A DNA stretch of 64,000 nucleotides from Bacteroidota bacterium. Lineage in GTDB: Bacteria > Bacteroidota > Bacteroidia > UBA8524. The translations under genes were made by a program, and so were the position numbers. The notes under the pieces are model-generated. The model saw only the letters and a program-made list of their open reading frames with translations. It searched no databases and had not been told where the DNA came from. Positions 38,446 to 47,425 of this stretch are shown here, in pieces (positions within the stretch are counted from its first letter, which is position 1; each line of letters begins with the position of its first letter). The stretch is taken from positions 124,001 through 188,000 of the forward strand of contig WBUH01000006.1 in the NCBI GenBank assembly GCA_008933805.1, in the 5' to 3' direction.

Positions 38446-38536
38446 CAATCATTTACCTTTTGCGGTAAAAAAGGTATAAATTAAAAAAATCGCGGCCCAA
38501 GGCCGCATAGCATACACATTACCGAAAAACCAGCCA
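38446..38536. terminator. hairpins between pheS and the caspase operon
   Basis: Two short stems: TACCTTTT/AAAAGGTA (38454-38476) and GCGGCC/GGCCGC (38492-38506). The second is preceded by an A-run, so as a terminator it would act on the minus strand; on the plus strand its role is unclear. Confidence 0.35.
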
Positions 38537-40735
38537 ATGAAAAAAGTTCTTTTATCCGCCCTATTTATAGCTTGTGCCGCAGTTGCCATGTCGCAAACCA
38601 AGCGTGCACTTTTCATAGGCATCAATACCTATTTGCCCGAAGGAGAAAAAGCAACGGGGAGTAGAGATGCACCGCCAAACCTGAACGGTTGTGTAAACGA
38701 TGCCCTATCGGTAAAAGAAATCATGATTACCCGCTTTGGGTTTGATGATAAAAACACTGCTACACTTTTTAACCAAGAGGCCAGTCGCGATGCCATTATC
38801 AAGGCTATTGAAAAACTGATTACCGATTCAAAATCAGGTGATGTGGTTTTTATCTTTTATGCTGGGCATGGGTCGCAGGTAAATAATTCATTATCAAAAG
38901 AAAACGACAAAAAAGACGAAACCATAGTTCCCGCCGATGCCTACAAGGGTGTTTTTGACATCCGCGATAAGGAAATGGCGGTATTACTGAATAAATTGGT
39001 AGAAAAGGGTGTAAAACTGACTGCGATATTTGACAGTTGCCACAGTGGGTCATTATCAAGAGGGGATAATGAATATAGATTCTCTCCCGGCGATAGTCGC
39101 GACGTGAAAGATGCTTCTGAACCAACCCCTCCGGAAGAAAAAGGAGCGTTGATTATCAGTGCAGCCCGCGATGTAGAACCCGCAAAAGAAGTAAAAGACG
39201 AACAAGGCTACCCACACGGAGGATTCACTCTTGCTTTGATAAAAGTACTGAGGGATGAGCCGGTTACATCTACCGTTCAAAAGTTGTTTAACCGTATCGA
39301 GGCCATCATGGAGTATTACAACCTTACCCAAAAACCCGTTTTGGCTGCAAACGATGAACGCCGAATAGGTACATTTTTAGGAGTTGACCGCTCACAGTTG
39401 CCTGATAAAATGGTGATACCCGTTATAAAAGTAGATAACGGATTGGTATTGTTGCAAGCAGGTATGCCCTCACGATTGAGCCCGAAAAGTCAGCTGCAAC
39501 GCAAAACCGACAAAGGCATTTTAAAAATTGAGGTGGTACGTCTTGACGGTCCTAACCGTTGTTATGCAAAAATAATTGAGGGTGACCCCAAAGGATTGAA
39601 ACCCGGCGATGATTTTGAAGTTACCAATGTGGTAATGGATGCCTCGGCAGCAGTGAAAATCTACATATACAACAGCGCATTTGATTATAAAAGTTTGGTG
39701 GCGAGTGCCAAAACGCTTGCCGATAAAAACTACAAAGCATCGGCCAATTCGTTTTCGTACCAAGAGATATACTACGATAAAAACAACTGGATAGTAACCT
39801 ACGCCGACAAAAACCCCGAAACCATCGGAACCCAGCTAAAAACCGATAAACTGATTACCGATTCTACCCTTGCCATTAACCTACCGGCAACCCAAGCGTT
39901 GGCCAAGGTATTGCAAGAACGGTTTAAGAAATTTTCGATAGTAACGATGGTAAACAACCCCGCTGACGCTGATTACGTGTTAGTAGGTCGTTACAAAAAC
40001 AACAAAATAGAGTATGCATTGGTGAACCCCGACCGTCAATACGACGACGGTACCCGCAGCTACTCAATGCCTGCGCGCACCAACTATTTTGAAATCAACG
40101 AAAACCAAGGAGTTGAACAATCGTTGGCAGATAGTTTAGAAGAATACATTTTGCGTATTGCCAAAGTGAAATCGTGGTTAACGCTGCAAAGCCCTCCCGA
40201 TGACGGCAGTTTCCCTTTTTCGTTCTCACTTAGGAAATCATCAAACGGTCAGTTGTTGGGCGACGGTGCCGAGGTAATGTACGGCGATACGATGGGTCTT
40301 GTATTTACAGTAGATGAAGTAAACGAAGCGTATTGGGACCGAAACAAACGCTACGTGTATATCTTCTCGATTGATAAAAATTCAAAAATGACGTTGTTGT
40401 TCCCCCGCAGTATTACGGGCGAAAACACTTACCCTGCCGTTGACAAACAAACGTTTGAAATTAAGCAAAATGCGCCGTTGGGCGCTGCGCGCCTCTTTAG
40501 AGTTAGCGATAGTGTAGGAACGTTGAATTACATGATGTTTACCAGCGCTGAACCCATCAACAACCTTGAAATATTTAAACAAGAGGGTGTGCTAAGGGAA
40601 AAATCAGGAGAAAGGGGAGGAAGCCCGCTGGAACAACTGCTAAAAGGGGTTGGCGAAAGCACCCGCGATGAATTAATAGCTCCCGCCAATTGGTCAATTA
40701 CAAGAATTTCAGTAAAATGCGTACCACGTAAATAA
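38537..40735 (+). CDS. exported caspase-family protein with DUF4384
   Basis: A 732-residue protein with a signal peptide (1-19, ending AMSQ). The caspase p20-like domain (about 22-290) has FIFYAGHGSQ with catalytic His111 and IFDSCHSGS with catalytic Cys168, as in metacaspases. A middle region (about 300-540) is unassigned. A DUF4384-like domain (about 545-680: SFSLRKSSNGQLLGDGAEVM, YVYIFSIDKNSKMTLLFP) follows. It should work in the periplasm or at the envelope. It is the first gene of a four-gene operon with a CHASE2 protein, a FecR-like protein and a second caspase. Its protein targets are unknown. Confidence 0.88.
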   Translation: MKKVLLSALFIACAAVAMSQTKRALFIGINTYLPEGEKATGSRDAPPNLNGCVNDALSVKEIMITRFGFDDKNTATLFNQEASRDAIIKAIEKLITDSKSGDVVFIFYAGHGSQVNNSLSKENDKKDETIVPADAYKGVFDIRDKEMAVLLNKLVEKGVKLTAIFDSCHSGSLSRGDNEYRFSPGDSRDVKDASEPTPPEEKGALIISAARDVEPAKEVKDEQGYPHGGFTLALIKVLRDEPVTSTVQKLFNRIEAIMEYYNLTQKPVLAANDERRIGTFLGVDRSQLPDKMVIPVIKVDNGLVLLQAGMPSRLSPKSQLQRKTDKGILKIEVVRLDGPNRCYAKIIEGDPKGLKPGDDFEVTNVVMDASAAVKIYIYNSAFDYKSLVASAKTLADKNYKASANSFSYQEIYYDKNNWIVTYADKNPETIGTQLKTDKLITDSTLAINLPATQALAKVLQERFKKFSIVTMVNNPADADYVLVGRYKNNKIEYALVNPDRQYDDGTRSYSMPARTNYFEINENQGVEQSLADSLEEYILRIAKVKSWLTLQSPPDDGSFPFSFSLRKSSNGQLLGDGAEVMYGDTMGLVFTVDEVNEAYWDRNKRYVYIFSIDKNSKMTLLFPRSITGENTYPAVDKQTFEIKQNAPLGAARLFRVSDSVGTLNYMMFTSAEPINNLEIFKQEGVLREKSGERGGSPLEQLLKGVGESTRDELIAPANWSITRISVKCVPRK

Positions 40736-40741
40736 ACTGCC

Positions 40742-41929
40742 ATGCAAGGTAAATATCTTATACGCGACAGTATTGGTGCCACCATAGGGGTTTTCCTTGT
40801 GATGGCACTTTTTGCTTACATCCCGTTTAACTTTAAAATACTGGATCCGTTGAAACACGGGCTAAAGGATTTTGAGTTCAGCGATATTTACTTCACCAAA
40901 ATAAAAAAAGAAGCCCCGATAGACAGTAACATCATTATTGTAAATGTGGGCTATAACAACCGTTTCGGTTTGCTGCAACAGTTACAACGCATTAAACAAG
41001 CAGGCCCCGCGGTGATAGGGTTTGACATACAACTGCTAAAAAATAAAGACCCCTTTATTGATTCGCTGTTAACGGCTGAAATCAATAACACGCCCAATAT
41101 GGTAATGGCTTCATACCTTTCAGGGAAAGGCCATGAAAATTACCGCTCGGAAGTAGTAACTACGGCGTTACCCCTCACCAACCCAACGTGGGGCTATATA
41201 AATTTCATAGGCAAAGACTCCACCTATCCCGTGCGCTACTTCAAACCCTTTTATGAGTTTACCAAAACTCCCCAAGAAGCGTTTGCCACAGCCATTGTTA
41301 AAAAATACAATCCGGCCGCCTATGAAGCGTTGAAAGGCAGGGGCAAACCCCTTGAAACCATTAATTACAGCCGCAGGCAAGATCAATACCACATAATAGA
41401 TGCCTTTGAGCTGGAAGACACTGCACTTGACATCAATGTGATGAAGGACAAAATAGTGTTGATGGGTTTCTTAGGGCCGGATTTAAAAACCAAAGTGATA
41501 GAAGAAAACCGCTTCACGCCCATGAACCCAAAGTTCAGCGGCAAAGCTTTCCCTGATATGTACGGCGTCATTATCCATGCAAACATTATCAGCTCAATCC
41601 TTGAAGGAAAATACATCAACAAAGTGCCATCGTGGTTGTCAATGGTACTGGCCTTTATTATTTGCTGGATACACGTGTTCTTTTTTACCAAGTTTTACAT
41701 CCGTCAGCACAAATTCTTCCACTTGGTAACCAAAATCATACAGCTGCTCACGTTTGTGTTAATGGTGTATCTTTCGTTTTTCTTCCTGTCGAAATTCGGG
41801 CTGAAAATAGATATGTCGCCCATATTGGCGGGTATCGCCCTGTCGGTAGATGTATTGTATTTTTACGACGGGTTTGCTACCTGGCTAAAAGAAAAGTACG
41901 GCTACCACACCGTTTTTGGCCACCACTAA
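40742..41929 (+). CDS. CHASE2 domain membrane protein without output domain
   Basis: A 395-residue protein. An N-terminal helix (about 10-29) leads to a CHASE2 extracytoplasmic sensor domain (about 35-285: SNIIIVNVGYNNRFGLLQQL, GPAVIGFDIQLLKNKD, DKIVLMGFLGPDLKTK, YGVIIHANIISSILEGKYIN). Three membrane helices follow (about 292-312, 326-350, 355-378). In other bacteria CHASE2 is joined to a kinase, cyclase or phosphatase; here the protein ends 15 residues after the last helix. It starts six bases after the caspase gene, so signal output through the neighbouring proteins is inferred. Confidence 0.88.
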   Translation: MQGKYLIRDSIGATIGVFLVMALFAYIPFNFKILDPLKHGLKDFEFSDIYFTKIKKEAPIDSNIIIVNVGYNNRFGLLQQLQRIKQAGPAVIGFDIQLLKNKDPFIDSLLTAEINNTPNMVMASYLSGKGHENYRSEVVTTALPLTNPTWGYINFIGKDSTYPVRYFKPFYEFTKTPQEAFATAIVKKYNPAAYEALKGRGKPLETINYSRRQDQYHIIDAFELEDTALDINVMKDKIVLMGFLGPDLKTKVIEENRFTPMNPKFSGKAFPDMYGVIIHANIISSILEGKYINKVPSWLSMVLAFIICWIHVFFFTKFYIRQHKFFHLVTKIIQLLTFVLMVYLSFFFLSKFGLKIDMSPILAGIALSVDVLYFYDGFATWLKEKYGYHTVFGHH

Positions 41930-42005
41930 AAGGTATAATTTCAAACATTTAACAACATAGTATTTACCAAATTGTAACTAAACGTATATAAACCAAAAGT
42001 AAGCG

Positions 42006-42947
42006 ATGAAAAACCTGATAATCATATTCTTTGCCCTATTGACAATAAGCCTTAGGGCCAATGGCGGCGATAATGAGTTTGTGGCCTTCTCGCTAAAAGG
42101 TAAAGTACAATACAAAAACAAAGCGGCCGACAAAGCATGGACGGCTGTTGCCACCAAAACCCCCTTCTACAAAGGAGCGGTGGTAAAAATAGGCAAGGGC
42201 GAAGAATTGGTGCTGTTGCACAAAAACTACAAAACCATAAAGCTTATCAAAGCCGGCGAGTACAAAATAGATAATCTTATTAAAGAGGCTGAAAAACAAC
42301 CCGCCGACGAAAGCACTGCCTATTTGCAGTTTATATGGAAAGAGTTTAACAAAAAACACAAAGATGCTGAAAGCTACCACAGTGAGTATATGCAAACCAA
42401 AGGCGGCGTGGAGCGCAGCGGCTGCACACGCCCGTTGATGCTAACCCCCGTGTATGGCGAAAAGAAACACGGTGAAAACATCACCCTTACATGGGCACAG
42501 GATAGCGGCACTACTACCTATACTGTAGTGTTTTTTGAGAACGAAAACGAAGACACCAAGTTGTTGGAGTTGGATGTAAACGGCACATCGCTCACCCTTT
42601 CGGCACAAACATTTTGGTTTCGTCCCGGCAAAACCTATTACTGGGTGGCCTATCCCAAAGGCAAACCCAACTGCGCCCGCTACACATTCAGCATAATAAA
42701 AGACGAAGAAGCCCAAGCGTTTCTTTCAGGGATAGCGAAACAATTAGAAACGTATACTGTAACGGCTCTTGATTATGTAAAAGCCGCATCACAATTAGAA
42801 GAAGCAGGCTATATGCAAGAAGCAGGGGAGTACTACAAGAACGCAATGGTACTATCCAATTATGCCGACGAATTCAAAATAATCTATAGTGGTTGGCTGG
42901 CTCGCGCAGGCAACTTTGAAGAAGCCCGCAAATGGTGGGTAGCATAA
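42006..42947 (+). CDS. exported FecR-like protein
   Basis: A 313-residue protein with a signal peptide (about 1-20, ending RANGG). Residues 25-95 resemble a FecR domain (SLKGKVQYKN..AWTAVATKTPFYKGAVVKIGKGEELVLL...IKLIKAGEYKI). A beta-rich Ig-like middle (about 145-230) and a helical, TPR-like C-terminus (about 240-313: AASQLEEAGYMQEAGEYYKN) follow. There is no sigma factor or TonB receptor nearby, so it is not a standard FecR relay. It sits 14 bases before the TPR-caspase gene and probably acts with it in the periplasm. Confidence 0.7.
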   Translation: MKNLIIIFFALLTISLRANGGDNEFVAFSLKGKVQYKNKAADKAWTAVATKTPFYKGAVVKIGKGEELVLLHKNYKTIKLIKAGEYKIDNLIKEAEKQPADESTAYLQFIWKEFNKKHKDAESYHSEYMQTKGGVERSGCTRPLMLTPVYGEKKHGENITLTWAQDSGTTTYTVVFFENENEDTKLLELDVNGTSLTLSAQTFWFRPGKTYYWVAYPKGKPNCARYTFSIIKDEEAQAFLSGIAKQLETYTVTALDYVKAASQLEEAGYMQEAGEYYKNAMVLSNYADEFKIIYSGWLARAGNFEEARKWWVA

Positions 42948-42961
42948 CAATCCTAAATGTC

Positions 42962-45900
42962 ATGAGAAAAACCGTATTGGTTATAGTTTCCCTGTTTGTG
43001 TTTGCTCACTTGCAAGCACAGATAGAGCTTATCAAACAAAAGCCGGATGCCATAAACGGCAAAGGCAAAATATACGCCTTGATTATCGGGATTTCGGATT
43101 ACGAAAACATAGGTGACCTGAACTATGCCGATGAGGACGCCCAAGACTTTTACGACTTTTTAGTAAAAGAATCAGACTTAGGAGTCGACTCAAACAACGT
43201 GCGCTTATTGCTGAACAAAAACGCGACTTCGGCCAACGTGGGTAAAGAGTTGCTTAAACTCAAAAACCGCATGGAAGAAGGCAGCACCTTCTTTTTCTAT
43301 TTTGCCGGACACGGCGATGCCAACGGCGAAGCACAGGCGTTTTTGTTGGCCTCGGATTTACCGCCTGTTGAAGACCCCAGCCTGTATGCCTTTGGCGGCG
43401 GGGTGATTCACGTGTACTTTATCAAAGACGAAATCCGTAAAATAATCACAGAGAAAAAGACCAACGTAATATTGGTAACCGATGCCTGCCGCACCAACGA
43501 ATTGGCCGGAAGCAAAGAGGGCACCAAGGCCTACGTAAATAAAATCATGGAGCAGAACAGCGGCGAAATTCAATTTATAAGCTGTGCTGCCGATGAAAAA
43601 TCAGAAGAGAGCGACTCTTGGGGACAAGGAAGAGGGGTGTTCTCTTACTTTTTTATGAACGGACTACGCGGTTTGGCTGACAGTCGCCCTGCCGATGGCA
43701 AAGTAACCGTGCGTGAATTGTACGACTATGTTCAACGCAACGTAGAAGAAGCAACCATTGTTACCGACGAAGACCTGATTGCCGTAACGGGCAAAGCGTT
43801 CCGTCAAAGTCCTCAGTATTGCTGCACCGAAAAGCAAAACGCCACCCTTGTATTGGTAAATGATGCGGTGAAACAAAACGCCATTGCAAAAATGGCCGCC
43901 GCAGAGCACACCATTAAACTGGCCTCAAACAAAGGCCGCTCGGCAATACGCACCCTGCAAACCAGCGATAGCGTATTAAAAGAGTTGTACAACAAATTTT
44001 ATGATGCACTAGACAATAAAAAGCTGACCTCACCCAAGGGAAAATCGGCATGGGATTATTACACAGCCTTTAAAAACCGAGCGGGCAAAAACGGCCCCGG
44101 TGTTTTTGATGCCACCGAAGACATAAAAGCAGCCTTACTTAACGATGCGCAAATCACCATTAATGCGTTTTACAGCTACAACGATAAGTGGGGAATGAGC
44201 GATAAAACCAAACGCGACTTTTACGAAGAAGGGGTAGAGAAACTACGCAAGGCCCGCAGTTTGATGGCTCCCGACGACCCCAACTCACCCATTGTAAAAC
44301 TTACCCGCCAGTGCATGGAGGCCGCGGGAATATTTGCCTCAAACCAACCCGACGACTGGAAACGTGGAATAAAGATGATGGATAGCGCAATTACAGCATT
44401 CCCTAAAAATCCATTGCCATTATTTTTAAAAGGCAGGCTGCTATACAATATGGCAAGCTACGATTCAGCCTTGGTGTACCTGCGCAAAAGCCATAGCATC
44501 GCTCCACGCTGGAGCATGCCTACTATTGGCATATCGGACGTTTACAGTGAGTTGGAGCAGTACGATAGTGTGGAAGTGCTACTGAATGAAGTGATAGAAA
44601 AGAACCCCGTAGCCATTGCCTATTTTAAATTAGGCTACCACTACGGAGAACACAAAGAAGACTATGAGAGTGCTGTGTTTTACAGCAAAATGGCACACGA
44701 ACTGGCTCCTGAAAAAACCAACATCATTAACAACATCGGAGCCTATTACGAAAAACAAGGCGAAGAAGACTCTGCGCTTGTGTATTATGAAATGGCGTAT
44801 AGCCTAGACTCGAACAACGCCTTTACGCTGTGCAACATTGGTAAATACCACCTTGAAAAAGGATATTACGAAAAGGCAGAGGAAGCCCTTTTAAGGGCGC
44901 TTAAAGCCGACTCAACGGAATCGGTTGCCTATCGAAGCTTGGGAGATTTGTATCTTAAAAAGAGCGATTTCTACCAATATAAATTGGGTCAACGGTTAAA
45001 GTTCTGGAACTTATCTATTGCCAACTATGAAAAGGCAATTAAGTACAAACCGGCCGACAAATATTTATACTCAATAAAAGCATCTGCTGAGTCGGTGATG
45101 GACATTGCTTTATCAGAAGCAACCATGAACCGATATCTAAAATATGGTAAACCTGACGCGGACTATTACAACGAGTTTGCATTAATATACCTGCACAACG
45201 AAGACACAGCAAAAGCAATGAACCTCTTTAAAAAGGGGATAGAGGCCGATAGCAACTTCTATTATCCGTATTTTAACATTGGCGAGATATTTTATTACAA
45301 CAGCCAATGGGATAGTGCCCTTAAGTATTATGAAAAGGCAATCAGCATTGATGATAAAATCAATTATTTAGGCTACAAGACAGAAAGAATAAACGAAAAG
45401 ATACAAGAGGAGCTGGATAGAACAGAATTAATAGCTACAAAAGAAAGATTGTTGGTTACTCAGCAAACAGATATTAACTCGGCTCTTGAGTTGGCAAACA
45501 TATACCTTAGCGAAGGCAACAACGATAGCGCGTATGCACTGTATTTGCGAGTGATAGAAAATGATCCTCAAACCTCGTCGGATACCTATTTAAGCCTTTT
45601 CCAAAGTGCGCGCTACAGCTACGAACACACTGTAGATACCGCGATAATGTATTTAGCCAAGGCAGCTCGTGAACGTAAAGATATTTCGCTGGCGTATGAA
45701 TACATCTATTATGTAAAAGACAATAGTGGATATTTATACAATGAAGAAGCGGCTGAGTGCGGGAAACTTTACTTTGCTTGTGAACCTACCCAGCCGGATG
45801 ATTACAGACTTGGCGATATGGCGTATTACATAGCGATGGTTTACAACAACAGCGGGGATACTGAAAAAACGCTGGGTTGGCTGGAAGAAAGCCTTAAAAA

Positions 45901-46042
45901 AGGCTATTGGGCAAGCAATCTTACAATGGACTACAACTTTGATAACCTTGCGGAGAACAAACAGTTTAAAAAGCTGATTAAAAAATACGGCAAGAAACAA
46001 AAGCAACAAGCACCCGTAGAAGATGAATATAATTGGCGGTAA
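42962..46042 (+). CDS. exported caspase-TPR protein
   Basis: A 1026-residue protein with signal peptide (1-20, ending LQAQ). I chose ATG 42962 because it starts at MRKTVLVIVSLFVF; an upstream in-frame Met at 42932 would bury the signal. The caspase domain (about 35-280) has FYFAGHGDA with His117 and LVTDACRTNE with Cys176. From about 400 to 1000 it is a long array of tetratricopeptide repeats (such as AIAYFKLGYHYGEHKEDYES and KALKYYEKAISIDDKI-like units). TPRs bind partner proteins. The stop codon overlaps a promoter-like TAACTTTG for the next gene. Confidence 0.88.
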   Translation: MRKTVLVIVSLFVFAHLQAQIELIKQKPDAINGKGKIYALIIGISDYENIGDLNYADEDAQDFYDFLVKESDLGVDSNNVRLLLNKNATSANVGKELLKLKNRMEEGSTFFFYFAGHGDANGEAQAFLLASDLPPVEDPSLYAFGGGVIHVYFIKDEIRKIITEKKTNVILVTDACRTNELAGSKEGTKAYVNKIMEQNSGEIQFISCAADEKSEESDSWGQGRGVFSYFFMNGLRGLADSRPADGKVTVRELYDYVQRNVEEATIVTDEDLIAVTGKAFRQSPQYCCTEKQNATLVLVNDAVKQNAIAKMAAAEHTIKLASNKGRSAIRTLQTSDSVLKELYNKFYDALDNKKLTSPKGKSAWDYYTAFKNRAGKNGPGVFDATEDIKAALLNDAQITINAFYSYNDKWGMSDKTKRDFYEEGVEKLRKARSLMAPDDPNSPIVKLTRQCMEAAGIFASNQPDDWKRGIKMMDSAITAFPKNPLPLFLKGRLLYNMASYDSALVYLRKSHSIAPRWSMPTIGISDVYSELEQYDSVEVLLNEVIEKNPVAIAYFKLGYHYGEHKEDYESAVFYSKMAHELAPEKTNIINNIGAYYEKQGEEDSALVYYEMAYSLDSNNAFTLCNIGKYHLEKGYYEKAEEALLRALKADSTESVAYRSLGDLYLKKSDFYQYKLGQRLKFWNLSIANYEKAIKYKPADKYLYSIKASAESVMDIALSEATMNRYLKYGKPDADYYNEFALIYLHNEDTAKAMNLFKKGIEADSNFYYPYFNIGEIFYYNSQWDSALKYYEKAISIDDKINYLGYKTERINEKIQEELDRTELIATKERLLVTQQTDINSALELANIYLSEGNNDSAYALYLRVIENDPQTSSDTYLSLFQSARYSYEHTVDTAIMYLAKAARERKDISLAYEYIYYVKDNSGYLYNEEAAECGKLYFACEPTQPDDYRLGDMAYYIAMVYNNSGDTEKTLGWLEESLKKGYWASNLTMDYNFDNLAENKQFKKLIKKYGKKQKQQAPVEDEYNWR

Positions 46043-46051: not shown

Positions 46052-47425
46052 ATGATAAGGGAATTGCCCGAGCCTTTTTCAATCAGGATGCAGCAACAAC
46101 TGCAAACCGGATTTAACGAATATGTCGCTGCCATTGGTGCTGACGCACCGGTATCGTTACGGATAAACCCCGAAAAGATAAAAACAACGCTGCCTTACCC
46201 AAAGGTAGCTTGGTGCAACGACGGGTATTACCTGCCCGCTCGCCCTGTTTTTACCTTCGACCCCTTGTTTCAGGCAGGAGCCTACTATGTGCAAGAAGCG
46301 GCGAGTATGTTCACGGGCTATGCCCTGCAACAAATCAACCCGCAAAACAAAGCGATAAAAGTATTGGATTTGTGCGCAGCGCCGGGGGGTAAAAGCACTC
46401 AATTAGTAAGTACGATATCGAAAGACAGTCTATTGGTGGCAAACGAGGTGATAAAAACACGCGTGGGGGTATTGCGCGATAACCTTGAAAAATGGGGCTA
46501 CCCCAACACCATTGTTACCAATAACGACCCTAAAGATTTTGAAGCCCTTGAAGGTTTTTTTGACGTAGTGGTTTGTGATGCACCGTGCAGCGGGGAAGGA
46601 CTTTTCCGCAAAGAACCCGAATCAGTTAAAGAATGGAGCGAAGCCAACGTGCAACTGTGCAGTCAACGCCAGCAGCGCATATTGGTATCAGCCATCAAGA
46701 CACTGAAAGACGGCGGGCACTTGATTTATTCAACCTGTACCCATGCTCCCGAAGAAAACGAACTAAACGTAGAGTGGATGTGCCGTGAATTCGGCCTTGA
46801 AGAAGTGAAACTGACATTACCCCAAGGCGCAGGCATTGTCGAGTCGAATATCGGGTATCGTTTTTATCCCCACTTAGTAAAAGCCGAAGGGTTTTATTGC
46901 GCGGTTTTGCAAAAGAAAGGCGATAACGAAACCAAGCTTTCAAGAACAAAGAAACCTCTTTTTATAGCGGCAAGAAAAATAGGCGCAGAACTATCCAACT
47001 ACTTTAGCGCAGATTATCCGTTGGCCTTTTTCGAGCGTAATATCATGTGGTGTGCTTTTCCCGCGAAGTACGATGAAGACCTTAATCTGTTGGCAGAGAA
47101 ACTGTACATTGTTTCATTCGGAACAGAAACAGGAGAGTTAATGAAAGGCGAGTTACTACCCGCACAAGGATTGGCCAACTCTATCATCCGCAACAAAGAA
47201 ATTTTTGAAAGCTATGAGTTAGAAATAACCGAGGCGGTAAAGTATTTACGCAAAGACGCCATTTTTGACGATAGCGGCATCAAAGGCTGGAAACTTGCTA
47301 CTTTTCAGGGCATCGGCCTGGGTTACTTCAAAAACCTTGGCAACCGCACCAACAATTATTTCCCCAAAGAGCGCAGGATTTTAAAAACCCCTTTGCAAGA
47401 AGAAATAGGTACGCTTACAATGTAA
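46052..47425 (+). CDS. RsmB/NOP family rRNA (cytosine-5) methyltransferase (RsmF-like)
   Basis: A 457-residue protein. The N-terminal region (PVSLRINPEK) leads to a Rossmann methyltransferase domain. SAM is bound at VLDLCAAPGGKST (about 109-121). The two catalytic Cys are in VVCDAPCSGEG (motif IV) and IYSTCTHAPEENE (motif VI). The C-terminus (about 330-457) is a PUA-like RsmF domain. It methylates cytosine at C5 in rRNA; the exact site cannot be told. Confidence 0.92.
   Translation: MIRELPEPFSIRMQQQLQTGFNEYVAAIGADAPVSLRINPEKIKTTLPYPKVAWCNDGYYLPARPVFTFDPLFQAGAYYVQEAASMFTGYALQQINPQNKAIKVLDLCAAPGGKSTQLVSTISKDSLLVANEVIKTRVGVLRDNLEKWGYPNTIVTNNDPKDFEALEGFFDVVVCDAPCSGEGLFRKEPESVKEWSEANVQLCSQRQQRILVSAIKTLKDGGHLIYSTCTHAPEENELNVEWMCREFGLEEVKLTLPQGAGIVESNIGYRFYPHLVKAEGFYCAVLQKKGDNETKLSRTKKPLFIAARKIGAELSNYFSADYPLAFFERNIMWCAFPAKYDEDLNLLAEKLYIVSFGTETGELMKGELLPAQGLANSIIRNKEIFESYELEITEAVKYLRKDAIFDDSGIKGWKLATFQGIGLGYFKNLGNRTNNYFPKERRILKTPLQEEIGTLTM

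Follow-up and report, generated by a model that had tools for sequence, protein, structure and literature searches.

In receptors described elsewhere, a kinase or cyclase fused to the CHASE2 domain receives its signal. In Magnetospirillum, mtxA is followed by a gene for a CHASE2–adenylate cyclase, and deletion of mtxA caused no phenotype under standard conditions (PMC4439547). The BiofilmReg operon of Burkholderia encodes a response regulator, a LysM-FecR protein, a CHASE2 histidine kinase, and a DUF4136 protein (PMC5192318). A cluster in Campylobacterota encodes a CHASE2 adenylate cyclase, a FecR outer-membrane protein, a TPR protein, and a phosphodiesterase (PMC9239204). Bacterial metacaspases and orthocaspases occur with the partner domains TPR, WD40, and DUF4384, and rare fusions of CHASE2 with a caspase are present in Trichodesmium and in EACC2 systems (PMC3501461, PMC8195603). 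There are precedents for CHASE2 with MtxA or FecR partners, for bacterial caspases, and for rare fusions of CHASE2 to caspases. An output-free CHASE2–MtxA pair accompanied by exported caspases is not described in the open-access literature that we searched, nor did this literature yield CHAT combined with CHASE2 or a FecR domain with a periplasmic caspase. The module described here consists of a conserved CHASE2–MtxA pair and exchangeable peptidases, which are caspases of several clades, TPR-CHAT proteins, and papain-like proteins.

The window analyzed is a stretch of 64,000 nucleotides from a Bacteroidota bacterium. Four plus-strand genes are separated by gaps of 6, 76, and 14 bases (Table 1), and their coordinates and open reading frames agree with the original prediction. 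The longest open reading frame of cas2 begins at 42932, and the start that gives a signal peptide (MRKTVLV) is at 42962. As had been claimed, all four products are predicted to be exported or located in the membrane: hydropathy, rather than SignalP, indicates signal-peptide-like N-termini for cas1, the MtxA-like protein, and cas2, and four membrane segments for the CHASE2 protein. The hairpin at 38491-38507, upstream of cas1, is followed by a T tail only when read on the minus strand and is therefore not an obvious plus-strand terminator. The RNA-methyltransferase-like gene begins 9 bases past the end of cas2, which leaves the 3' end of the operon undefined; this gene is not considered part of the module.

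Table 1. Features of the locus and of the corresponding site in related genomes. Coordinates are positions in the window unless a locus is named.
Feature	Position	Strand	Description
Gap between pheS and cas1	38446..38536	+	91 bases, likely module promoter region
cas1	38537..40735	+	732 aa, exported metacaspase-type protein; nearest solved structures are metacaspases
cas1 Peptidase_C14 domain	38600-39349		Residues 22-271
cas1 His111	38867-38869		
cas1 Cys168	39038-39040		
cas1 weak DUF4384	40343-40552		Residues 603-672
CHASE2 gene	40742..41929	+	395 aa, stand-alone CHASE2 membrane protein
MtxA-like gene	42006..42947	+	313 aa, exported; FecR-like in the original prediction
cas2	42962..46042	+	1,026 aa, exported caspase with TPR array
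cas2 His117	43310-43312		
cas2 Cys176	43487-43489		
RNA-methyltransferase-like gene	46052..47425	+	Downstream of cas2; named from sequence
Lone caspase after pheS	L222:2883-4931 (G003) and L223:5296-7332 (G001)		About 680 aa; site of cas1 in the window

The second gene encodes a CHASE2 membrane protein, as predicted. The Pfam match covers residues 79-310 (E 1.4e-20). Hydropathy places one N-terminal membrane segment at about 11-29 and three C-terminal segments at about 298-316, 332-350, and 361-379, with the CHASE2 domain in the periplasm. This is the architecture of CHASE2 receptors, with an N-terminal helix, an extracytoplasmic CHASE2 domain, and C-terminal helices. No cytosolic output domain (kinase, cyclase, or GGDEF) is present in the window protein, whose tail is about 16 aa, and none was seen among the family members examined. 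These have a median length of 406 aa (mostly 364-550 aa) and a median tail of 26 aa past the last helix. Because the members examined have no output domain, the output of CHASE2 is probably supplied by a partner protein. The Magnetospirillum CHASE2 protein, in contrast, has a cyclase output, and no caspases are mentioned in the available part of the report, whereas the window CHASE2 is output-free and lies beside caspases (PMC4439547). The Burkholderia operon resembles the window in that a CHASE2 receptor is encoded with a periplasmic partner, there of the FecR type, but its output is a histidine kinase and a response regulator, and it is described without a peptidase (PMC5192318). In the Campylobacterota cluster, CHASE2 and TPR proteins are likewise encoded together, again with a FecR-type partner, but the output is cAMP and no caspases are reported (PMC9239204).

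The third gene had been labeled FecR-like, and this family assignment did not hold. FecR (PF04773) is absent from the window protein and from all of its 68 homologues (Pfam, E 0.01), and comparison of its profile with 13 true FecR proteins gave a probability of 12%; a FecR identity was rejected on these grounds. No other Pfam family matched the 313-aa protein convincingly. A model built with the 68 homologues (mean pLDDT 88) contains a beta domain (residues 25-87), an Ig/FN3 domain (145-230), and TPR-like helices (233-310). Among solved structures, Foldseek ranks the C-terminal domain of MtxA from Magnetospirillum first for this model (4z29, E 1.4e-6), and the profile of the protein weakly matches the N-terminal region of MtxA (E 0.0016). 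Like the window protein, with its signal-peptide-like N-terminus and adjacent CHASE2 gene, MtxA is an exported protein of about 313 aa with a beta region, an Ig-like domain, and TPRs, encoded next to CHASE2 (PMC4439547). Since model and profile both match MtxA, size and domain order are equal, and mtxA adjoins a CHASE2 gene, the third gene is better named MtxA-like; it is not demonstrably a FecR gene. In function, the earlier label is close, since the CHASE2 receptors of Burkholderia and Campylobacterota have FecR-type proteins encoded beside them (PMC5192318, PMC9239204).

The CHASE2 and MtxA-like genes form the conserved core of the locus, and the pair is conserved across Bacteroidota. Of 295 evenly drawn Bacteroidia genomes, 29 carry a member of the stand-alone CHASE2 family and 34 a member of the MtxA-like family, with three of these 34 matches weak and partial. 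Both occur together in 27 genomes, that is, in 27 of the 29 CHASE2-positive genomes; the two genes are adjacent in 21 of these and lie on separate contigs in 6. When 84,980 species genomes were scanned, 359 relatives were found. The best 80 of the 359 belong to Bacteroidota and Ignavibacteria/Kapaibacteria, almost all with an adjoining partner. An MtxA-like partner lies within three genes at 93 of 103 CHASE2 loci. Saprospiraceae loci (for example L157, L166, L168, and L188) have a recurring order of CHASE2, MtxA, a TPR protein, and a second MtxA-like gene.

Both outer genes of the window encode caspases that pass the Peptidase_C14 profile cut-off and, as claimed, keep the catalytic His and Cys (H111/C168 in cas1, H117/C176 in cas2), as do the L020 orthologues. 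They share the Peptidase_C14 domain and the His-Cys dyad with the bacterial metacaspases and orthocaspases. Unlike the CHASE2-fused metacaspases, the window has a separate output-free CHASE2, an MtxA-like partner, and exported caspases. The cas1 protein matches Peptidase_C14 with E 3e-27 (Pfam), and among solved structures it is closest, in sequence and in fold, to metacaspases of plants, yeast, and trypanosomes. The DUF4384 that had also been claimed for cas1 is weak, with 25.4 bits just under the curated cut-off of 27; it exceeds the cut-off in the cas1 homologues of L134 (28.9) and L200 (27.5). The structure model of cas1 (mean pLDDT 64) is poor beyond the caspase domain and too weak for a structural reading of that part, which was dropped. 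The description of cas2 as a caspase with a TPR array was borne out by a Peptidase_C14 match (E 2e-18) and many TPR models, mainly in the C-terminal half. An acidic residue ahead of the catalytic Cys sets the Arg/Lys preference of metacaspases. Both window caspases, and 48 of 53 caspases near CHASE2 genes, have Asp two residues before the Cys, and cleavage after Arg or Lys is therefore probable. A search of the order of genome G041 found no further cas1 orthologue. Close to the module in that genome, on one contig (G041:C145; L114, L020), lie a second cas2-like paralogue and a caspase of the WD40 type.

Caspases are concentrated around the CHASE2 genes. The window genome (4.29 Mb) has a single CHASE2 gene, which is flanked by two of the genome's three Peptidase_C14 genes; the clustering is more than chance. 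At the 103 non-duplicate CHASE2 loci, the near flank (up to 5 kb; 875 kb in total) contains 53 C14 genes and the far flank (5-10 kb; 579 kb in total) contains 6, a density six times higher in the near flank. The near-flank density is also far above the genome-wide background of 276 C14 genes in the 295 class-sample genomes. The catalytic His and Cys are retained in each of the 53 nearby caspases. A hydrophobic N-terminus is present in 50; of the rest, one is near the threshold, one has an open reading frame truncated by the end of its contig, and one has a start placed too far upstream. The link belongs to one branch of the CHASE2 family, since a caspase is found within 5 kb at 35 of the 75 named loci closest to the window CHASE2 (80 named loci had been chosen by rank of similarity to it) but at only 3 of the 28 CHASE2 loci of the even class sample. 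In the CHASE2 tree, 37 of 61 rows in the half that includes the window are caspase-linked versus 1 of 42 in the other half, which accounts for the low rate in the class sample, and the caspase labels change 14 times versus 31 when shuffled. The same trend is seen for TPR-CHAT proteins, with 12 in the near and 1 in the far flank, and for papain-like proteins, with 5 and 1. In Ignavibacteria (L154, L158, L164, L170, and L199), an exported papain-like peptidase is encoded behind the CHASE2–MtxA pair, two or three genes past CHASE2; the copies scanned match DUF4384 weakly, and a caspase is also close by.

The order of the genes recurs outside the window. L020, from an uncultured member of the Flavobacteriales, and L176 each contain orthologues of all four genes in a cluster. 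In two other lineages, the caspase–CHASE2–MtxA–(x)–caspase order is found again, with same-strand tight runs of C14–CHASE2–MtxA–C14 in the window, C14–CHASE2–MtxA–x–C14 in L200, and C14–CHASE2–MtxA–x–x–C14–C14 in L134. Gaps of 2-50 bases are seen at module loci in many lineages. In L130, L131, and L133, a caspase-TPR gene is divergent from CHASE2 at a spacing of 43-145 bases. A single protein encoded directly past CHASE2 in Ignavibacteria (L161:11124-13319) combines a caspase with a beta domain of the MtxA type and an outer-membrane beta-barrel, which suggests an outer-membrane-anchored caspase. A small exported protein of 134-167 aa is encoded at several caspase–CHASE2 loci (L020:7940-8347, L176:9329-9781, L183:9449-9853, and L200:7279-7782). 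It is absent between the window genes, has no Pfam match where scanned (L176), and may be an inhibitor or a substrate.

The original idea of a module, which would have failed had related genomes carried the genes apart and in no conserved order, passes this test through the clustering, the repeated order, and the caspase density, but the four genes are not a fixed set. In the closest relatives, G001 and G003 of the window's family, synteny is kept upstream to pheS, and pheS is followed by a single caspase gene that belongs to another clade; no CHASE2, MtxA, or cas2 gene is present at this site. In G073 and G070, cas1-like and cas2-like genes are paired without CHASE2. A fixed four-gene unit is ruled out by these two observations. 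The nearby caspases form several clades, some of whose members lie away from CHASE2. Taken with the caspase pairs that lack CHASE2 and the lone caspase of the sister genera, this indicates that the module was assembled from the pair and exchangeable peptidases. The pheS and methyltransferase genes lie apart in the relatives, so that no clean before/after site emerged; instead, the lone caspase gene follows pheS in G001 and G003.

The arrangement suggests a protease signaling system that works outside the cytoplasm. We give about even weight, for and against, to a reading in which CHASE2–MtxA gates periplasmic proteolysis by the exported caspases, as an envelope signaling module of Bacteroidota. 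This reading is based on the recurrence of exported cysteine peptidases as partners and on the fusion of the sensor partner with a caspase in one lineage. The MtxA-like protein would sense an envelope condition or relay it to CHASE2, as the conserved pairing suggests. The CHASE2–MtxA complex would then, by presumed physical contact, hold or release the exported caspases, although the nearby caspases form no single clade. Released caspases may cut periplasmic or outer-membrane targets, for an envelope stress response or controlled self-damage. In one large branch, metacaspase-type exported cysteine peptidases would thus replace the missing CHASE2 output outside the cytoplasm. A more specific form of this proposal is tentative: CHASE2 and MtxA as sensor and switch, the metacaspase and the caspase-TPR protein as a two-step periplasmic protease cascade, and the periplasm rather than the cytosol as the site of caspase signaling in Bacteroidota.

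The signal could also flow in reverse. The exported caspases would be sensors or triggers whose cleavage of the MtxA-like protein or CHASE2 starts or terminates a signal, in the manner of regulated proteolysis. Gene content and clustering would also fit, a CHASE2 without an output domain might be a substrate or an anchor, and the L161 fusion is compatible with this order of events. It is unlikely, as other phyla pair CHASE2 and MtxA or FecR with cytosolic outputs and no protease is reported there, for Magnetospirillum in the available part of the source (PMC5192318, PMC9239204, PMC4439547). The almost caspase-free half of the CHASE2 tree likewise implies that the pair can exist without cleavage. 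We also doubt, to a similar degree, that CHASE2–MtxA is self-standing with an output of its own and the caspases are mere neighbors, brought in by the clustering of envelope genes in caspase-rich Bacteroidota. The lone caspase of the sister genera, the caspase pairs without CHASE2, the several caspase clades, and the lack of a caspase at most class-sample CHASE2 loci would all be expected under such co-location. The six-fold enrichment within the same loci, the short gaps and repeated order in many lineages, the MtxA-domain–caspase fusion, and the genome-wide rarity of caspases argue against it. An anti-phage or abortive-infection role, in which the caspases would kill or damage the cell once a phage perturbs the envelope, is improbable and less likely than gating, reverse flow, or uncoupled co-location: caspases are known effectors of cytosolic defense systems (PMC8195603) and the PADLOC caspase model matches both window caspases, but a defense system was set aside because this generic model alone matches, over the caspase domain, with the EACC1/EACC2-type caspase model (NF047832) far under its cut-off (38.7 and 55.5 bits versus 140) and housekeeping genes (pheS, mnmG, and RNA methyltransferases) as neighbors.

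To our knowledge, neither the ligands of CHASE2 nor the role of MtxA is known. Its pairing with CHASE2 gives MtxA a role, as a partner of that receptor, that can be tested. The repeated occurrence of an output-free CHASE2 with exported caspases offers a simple system for finding out what is sensed by CHASE2–MtxA. The same Bacteroidota family, with cultured hosts in Labilibacter marinus, Lacibacter cauensis, and Neolewinella maritima, also offers a route to the function of bacterial caspases outside the cytoplasm.
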